A DNA stretch of 11,859 nt, from positions 1 through 11,859 of the forward strand of contig JAJRTR010000058.1 in the NCBI GenBank assembly GCA_024278215.1, in the 5' to 3' direction. Shown piece by piece: positions 6 through 390 of the stretch. Below the pieces are notes generated by a model. It saw nothing but the letters and a program-made list of their open reading frames with translations. It did not search any database and had not been told where the DNA came from. The DNA is from a bacterium. Its GTDB lineage: Bacteria; UBP15; UBA6099; JAJRTR01. The position numbers and the translations under genes are program-made. Each line of letters begins with the position of its first letter. The stretch's first letter is position 1.

Positions 6-184
6 GAGCCAATTGCAAAATTATGTTCGTAGCGAGGTCGAGCGAAATTGTTCCGAAGCAAGGCGGAGATGCGAAATCCCCGCAGGCGTACTTGTAGAGT
101 ACGTCGAGGACGATTTTACACCGACAACGCAGCTATGGACAATAGCAGCCGACCGCAGCAGAATCATAATTTTGCAATTGGCTC
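6..184. repeat. Long imperfect palindrome, MITE-like or hairpin repeat element
   Basis: Bases 6-25 and 165-184 are perfect 20-bp inverted repeats. Moving inward, base i still pairs with base 190-i without any shift of register: 36-40 with 150-154, 47-51 with 139-143, 74-78 with 112-116, and 87-92 with 98-103 around a five-base loop at 93-97. The whole stretch can therefore fold into one long interrupted hairpin centred on base 95. No transposase or convincing protein is encoded inside it. Non-autonomous transposable elements (MITEs) and dispersed hairpin repeats look like this, but copy number and target-site duplications cannot be judged here. The immediate flanks show no obvious direct repeat, and the left flank is only five bases. 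It lies about 220 bp downstream of livG. The palindrome is seen directly; the mobile-element reading is inference. Confidence 0.72.
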
Positions 185-390
185 CACGGTCTGTTTTTAA
201 AGAATTATTTTATTGGGGGTATGCACTTGATTCCGGTTGTCATGATATATCGCCTGCACTCTTTTTCTCATTATCCCTGATACGCATAATTTTTCCGTCG
301 TTCCCAGGCGCTCCGGCTTCGTAACGTATAACAGCTATTGCCCTGGCAGACAAACTGTTGTGCACAGATACATCTGTGCCGATAGCAAAA
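185..390. other. Gene-poor gap between the palindrome and livG
   Basis: Together with the palindrome this makes about 400 bp without a convincing gene. It contains a perfect 8-bp inverted repeat with a 2-nt centre at 362-379, which lies just beyond the livG terminator hairpin. The livG reading frame also continues open for 53 codons after its stop, to a TGA at 240-242. A GTG at 365 would allow a 41-residue peptide in that frame. I recognise no family in it and see no good ribosome binding site, so I do not call it a gene. Otherwise I see nothing in this stretch. Confidence 0.5.

Follow-up and report, generated by a model that had tools for sequence, protein, structure and literature searches.

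Among the bacterial MITEs reviewed in PMC2229807, Correia/NEMIS and RUP are gene-less intergenic elements of 100-200 bp with terminal inverted repeats, target duplications and a long stem-loop, traits that are all shared by the element described here. However, Correia/NEMIS and RUP have been described as genus-level families with TA-type ends (PMC2229807), whereas our element makes a 4-bp duplication and has an interior that is found across phyla with different ends. The ERIC/IRU elements of enterobacteria are imperfect intergenic palindromes of 127 bp, a size similar to that of our short variant of about 125 bp (type B below), but they occur in other taxa and are reported to have a 7-bp terminal inverted repeat with TA ends (PMC2229807). 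REPIN/RAYT systems also consist of dispersed intergenic palindromes; unlike them, the element has target duplications and no linked RAYT gene. The IS1380 family resembles some relatives of the element (type A) in its ends, as seen at locus L223, and in its 4-bp duplication (YTAR). It differs in that the element lacks a transposase gene, the interior is not common to both and the ends of our own copy are different.

Finally, palindromic multicopy nucleotide sequences have been described in Geobacteraceae, genome by genome, as families of unknown function (PMC2700814, PMC2996986, PMC3543383). They are likewise intergenic, palindromic and multicopy, a likeness at the level of description, and type-B-like relatives of our element are present in a Geobacter MAG (L120). 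The palindromic families of Geobacter and Pelobacter may include the superfamily reported here, as single-genome views of its short type. Rfam gave no match up to an E-value of 1 for positions 1-400 of our locus and none at the gathering threshold for five loci with relatives. Sequence strings of the element were found in none of the relevant papers searched, and we found no description of it as one family in the literature. Hence, while bacterial MITEs are known, a cross-phylum superfamily with a common interior and variable ends appears to be new.

A palindromic element and its copies in the host genome

The window, i.e., the whole stretch of 11,859 nucleotides that was analysed, is contig C28 of a draft genome of 4.55 Mb in 207 contigs (G000). 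It starts with an imperfect palindrome in one gapless register (Table 1), in which 57 of the 95 pairs between positions i and 190-i are complementary (18-30 in the registers next to it) and where the outermost 20 bp pair perfectly. Folded as RNA, the palindrome reaches -80.2 kcal/mol (z -7.7), a stability equalled by none of 200 shuffles, and the DNA fold has a z of -8.5 against shuffles. There is no gene in it; a frame of 103 aa at 13..324 was rejected as accidental. The original prediction had described such a gapless, gene-less palindrome with perfect 20-bp ends and had proposed to fold it as RNA. The description is confirmed, at a length of 179 bp, and the fold is far more stable than those of shuffled sequences.

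Table 1. Features of the element in the window, and terminal repeats found on the shared interior
Feature	Positions	Strand	Sequence or remark
Whole MITE-like palindromic element	6..184	+	179 bp
Left terminal inverted repeat	6..25	+	GAGCCAATTGCAAAATTATG
Right terminal inverted repeat	165..184	-	exact reverse complement of 6-25
Interior common to other phyla	28..161	+	covariance model R1 end to end, 86.6 bits, E 4.5e-15
Outer left loop motif	26..37	+	TTCGTAGCGAGG
Outer right loop motif	153..163	+	CCGCAGCAGAA
Middle left loop motif	58..65	+	GCAAGGCG
Middle right loop motif	126..136	+	AACGCAGCTAT
Tip hairpin	85..108	+	GGCGTACTTGTAGAGTACGTCGAG, G-U wobble conserved
Right copy of 4-bp target duplication	185..188	+	CACG; left copy seen in overlapping contig C31, outside the window
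Window ends			GAGCCAATTGCAAAATTATG
Type A ends			CCYGCATTATTCATGA or CCYGCATTTCTCACC, inserted at YTAR
Type B (short) ends			CAGGmTGTTGAAAAAGGTCC
Ends of same-order relative			AGAGGCTCTAACAAAA
Further end types, found by model only			e.g. L273, L276, L277, L284

The rest of the window holds ordinary neighbours. Between 402 and 10537, the translations read as genes of a branched-chain amino-acid-type ABC transporter, a hydantoinase-like and a ComF-like gene, an RfaE-like kinase and nucleotidyltransferase, a potassium-channel-like gene and a galactokinase. The left flank of the window copy is uninformative because the contig ends 5 bp before the element. Contig C31 overlaps window positions 185-220 with 3 differences and shows CACG on both sides of the element. 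It probably carries the same insertion, and the two contigs probably join at the window copy. Many contigs of this genome start or end inside a copy (e.g., C8, C11, C20, C25, C27, C28 and C31), so the element fragments the draft assembly.

A search of the whole genome with the 20-bp end, allowing up to 3 mismatches, returned 320 forward and 327 reverse matches and none for a reversed-pattern control, which indicates about 320 copies. Their lengths cluster at 178 bp, 1 bp under the window copy, and most sister copies keep the register. Among the 75 intact copies with both flanks present, 47 are flanked by exact direct repeats of 4 bp and 6 by repeats of 5 bp, where mismatched flanks lead one to expect 1.7 and 0.1, respectively. 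The duplicated bases are A/T-rich, preceded by C and followed by G (C-NNNN-G). In 374 kb of sampled sequence, with ORFs reconstructed after removal of the element, 3 of 39 copies lie inside ORFs, against 80% of random points, and 36 are intergenic (20% expected). These duplications and the avoidance of genes are the marks of a MITE mobilised by a DDE transposase, whose gene-disrupting insertions were removed; together with the copy number, they indicate a MITE-like non-autonomous element that depends on a DDE transposase in trans.

The original prediction had listed a MITE among its options, and the copy number, conserved ends, target duplications and intergenic placement support it. It had named target duplications of TA type or longer as support; those found are of 4 bp, not TA. 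The outcomes it had named as contrary, a single copy or the loss of register by indels, are contradicted by about 320 copies, most of which are in register. A long intergenic palindrome, in a genome with six weak matches to Y1_Tnp, could also be a REP/REPIN-type element moved via single-strand hairpins by a Y1 tyrosine transposase (RAYT). We regard this as very improbable: the clear 4-bp target duplications point to a DDE enzyme, and none of the six matches lies between paired intact window-type ends. The explanation is in fact already refuted unless the duplications are pre-existing sequence.

The copies in the host genome differ from their consensus by about 5% on average, and the tip, the arms and the rest are alike in this respect (5-7%). 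The terminal ends are somewhat less diverged, in a set of copies whose selection favoured intact ends. Within this genome, the copies simply decay neutrally. One derivative of 46 bp (L237 1501-1546, G000 C6:16952), flanked by TATC/TATC, consists of barely more than both terminal repeats; it has either lost its interior by deletion or represents a minimal mobile unit.

Terminal repeats and candidate transposases

We found no autonomous element with window-type ends in the fragmented draft assembly. The 3 DDE_Tnp_1 genes of the genome have other ends and do not lie between two intact ends of the window type. The 15-bp end occurs without the usual interior behind it at 13 places, and no transposase lies beside the lone ends among those examined. 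The C-terminal relic of an IS1380-type transposase adjoins one copy (L227 1501-1653, G000 C44:16102). The active enzyme is thus lost, outside the assembly or associated with diverged ends. The same genome has an IS4-like element with ends CCAATACCGTTCAGTTAAGC (L194 1090-2516), which is unrelated to the palindromic element. A search of plasmid and phage collections gave no match to the element. Two matches in viral contigs look like chance and are not detected by the covariance model R1 (see below).

The same interior of ~134 bp is found with different terminal repeats (Table 1). In a relative of the same order, the BLAST match covers the interior only, and the ends are different. In type A, the YTAR duplication is supported by 6 non-palindromic 4-bp repeats in direct orientation, where 0.8 are expected, versus 1 inverted case. 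A host of type-A copies carries an IS1380-family element (L223) with ends similar to type A, and no such interior adjoins the ends of this element. When compared with IS1380-type terminal inverted repeats, only the type-A relatives agree, and the window ends (GAGCCAATTGC) differ from those of L223. In Nitrospira moscoviensis, type-A ends form pairs at MITE length only and none at the length of an IS. The distant genome G041 has at least 28 copies with IS1380-like ends, which makes it suitable as a second host for a population-level study.

Distribution and structure of the interior

The central pattern GGCGTACTN{4,9}AGTACGTCGAG was searched in GTDB genomes and, among the matches listed, most are palindromic, measure 178-186 bp (or about 125 bp) and carry the left-hand motif TTCGTnGCGAgg and the right-hand motif CGCAGyAGAA. 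We built R1 from 21 interiors, all from outside the phylum of the window and with their terminal repeats cut off. It matches the window interior over its full length (Table 1) and also detects the ~125-bp type B, and it gives no hit on chance matches of the pattern in coding genes. With nhmmer, the window scored 56.3 bits, versus 18-30 bits when all but the tip was shuffled and 6-20 bits when the tip was shuffled, while fully shuffled interiors went undetected; the match therefore rests on both the tip and its flanks.

Of 117 genomes drawn from across the domain, 12 contain R1 matches with an E-value of 1e-4 or better. Model-supported copies occur, among others, in Delta- and Gammaproteobacteria, Nitrospirota, Acidobacteriota, Aegiribacteria, Hydrogenedentota, Planctomycetota, Neomarinimicrobiota and Spirochaetia, some of which belong to the training set of R1; matches in Omnitrophota are weaker. 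Conservation of the tip in the cross-phylum pattern set is partly circular, since the set was selected by its tip. This circularity is eased by the survey of 117 genomes and by the elements of Nitrospira chosen by their ends alone, in 20 out of 20 of which the tip and the left loop motif can be recognised.

Compensated changes were found at 23 of 34 predicted pairs in a sequence-only alignment. In an alignment of 54 elements that was fitted to the model, and leans towards it, 91.6% of pair cells are standard, against 29-44% when partners are slid, and the paired cells changed on both sides between families number 533, against 161 in shuffles. In one Nitrospira subfamily, a G-C pair of the tip stem has become A-T, and matches found by the model only have tip stems that were replaced yet remain paired (e.g., GGGGCC/GGCCCC and GTCCGC/GCGGAC). 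The G-U wobble of the tip is kept in 52 of the 54 elements, although the pattern used to choose most of them includes this wobble. The mismatched internal loops keep their asymmetry, with a consensus of CGAGGCG on the left in the outer and middle tiers and a CGCAGTAG-like sequence on the right. We do not claim a 'bulged-G' RNA motif in these loops, as their AGUA-like strand is not constant (AGTA, AGCA, AGCC). The tiers are spaced by about 25 bp in a hand count on L125, for which an automatic motif count gives a loose signal only. Type B resembles this ladder with its outer tier missing, and the arrangement suggests modular growth of the interior in ~25-bp tiers. The relatives of ~125 bp in which the outer tier is seemingly missing include L101, L115, L097, L131, L157 and L171.

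The original prediction had considered a recent descent from a perfect palindrome, which finds no support since the same mismatched loops are conserved across phyla and are therefore old and constrained. Absence from relatives, which it would have counted against itself, is seen in part: 5 of the 6 other genomes available for the window's small phylum lack the core pattern, but distant phyla carry it. An ordinary MITE, i.e., an internally deleted insertion sequence whose interior is a leftover without role and whose many copies stem from a once-active transposase, would account for the terminal repeats, the target duplications, the high copy number and the neutral decay, and suits the IS1380-type relic next to a copy. 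However, a leftover interior would be expected neither to recur in different phyla on different terminal repeats nor to covary, and the IS1380-family element with type-A-like ends has no such interior near them. The match of R1 to the window already strains this explanation, to which we give a low probability.

A probable structured module for mobility

The + strand of the consensus folds at -80.8 kcal/mol and the other strand at -65 kcal/mol, and the G.T versus A.C counts between families (71 vs 49, p 0.055) lean weakly in the same direction. This stable fold, the nearly invariant wobble of the tip and the intergenic location of the copies are in line with an RNA functional for the host, such as the mRNA stability or termination element claimed for ERIC, that was spread by transposition and kept by selection on gene regulation. 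Yet, among the copies of the host genome we found no sign that pairing is selected on one strand, as G.T is not in excess over A.C (79 vs 143 at the pairs found in both strand folds, and 39 vs 42 by distinct site), and no orientation bias in gaps between tandem genes (13 same, 9 opposite). We looked for a conserved neighbouring gene and found none, and the lack of a match in Rfam also argues against such an RNA, which we consider unlikely. The long structured RNA of the original prediction draws support from the plentiful compensatory changes between families, but not from pairing on one strand or orientation within the genome. A need of the host for the element in place would keep one or the other, which points to a role in mobility or spread.

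Considering that the interior recurs with different ends and, in its arms and tip, covaries between families while the copies in the host decay, it is probably a structured module that serves mobility and not a host function. The explanation we favour, and regard as likely, is that the stretch in the window is a copy of a gene-less, non-autonomous, MITE-like transposon whose interior belongs to a cross-phylum hairpin superfamily and acts in cis as a mobility module. A DDE transposase supplied in trans would cut at the 20-bp ends and insert the element at C-NNNN-G sites. The interior, as an RNA or single-strand DNA hairpin, would help the element to move or to persist, and the terminal repeats would be exchanged, or diverge, to suit whichever transposase is at hand. 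Horizontal transfer would carry the element between phyla, and each inserted copy then decays neutrally. More tentatively, the interior could be a bacteria-wide mobile hairpin module, a tiered RNA or single-strand DNA of ~134 nt that joins the ends of any available DDE transposase. Its structure would then be the heritable unit, acting in cis, for instance through recruitment or regulation of the transposase; we see this as possible but doubtful.

The interiors of MITEs are commonly regarded as leftover DNA. In this case, it is the interior that is conserved and the ends that vary, in hosts from at least 8 phylum-level groups and in about a tenth of the sampled genomes. If the hairpin acts in mobility, it becomes testable how a non-autonomous element persists when it is not tied to a single transposase.
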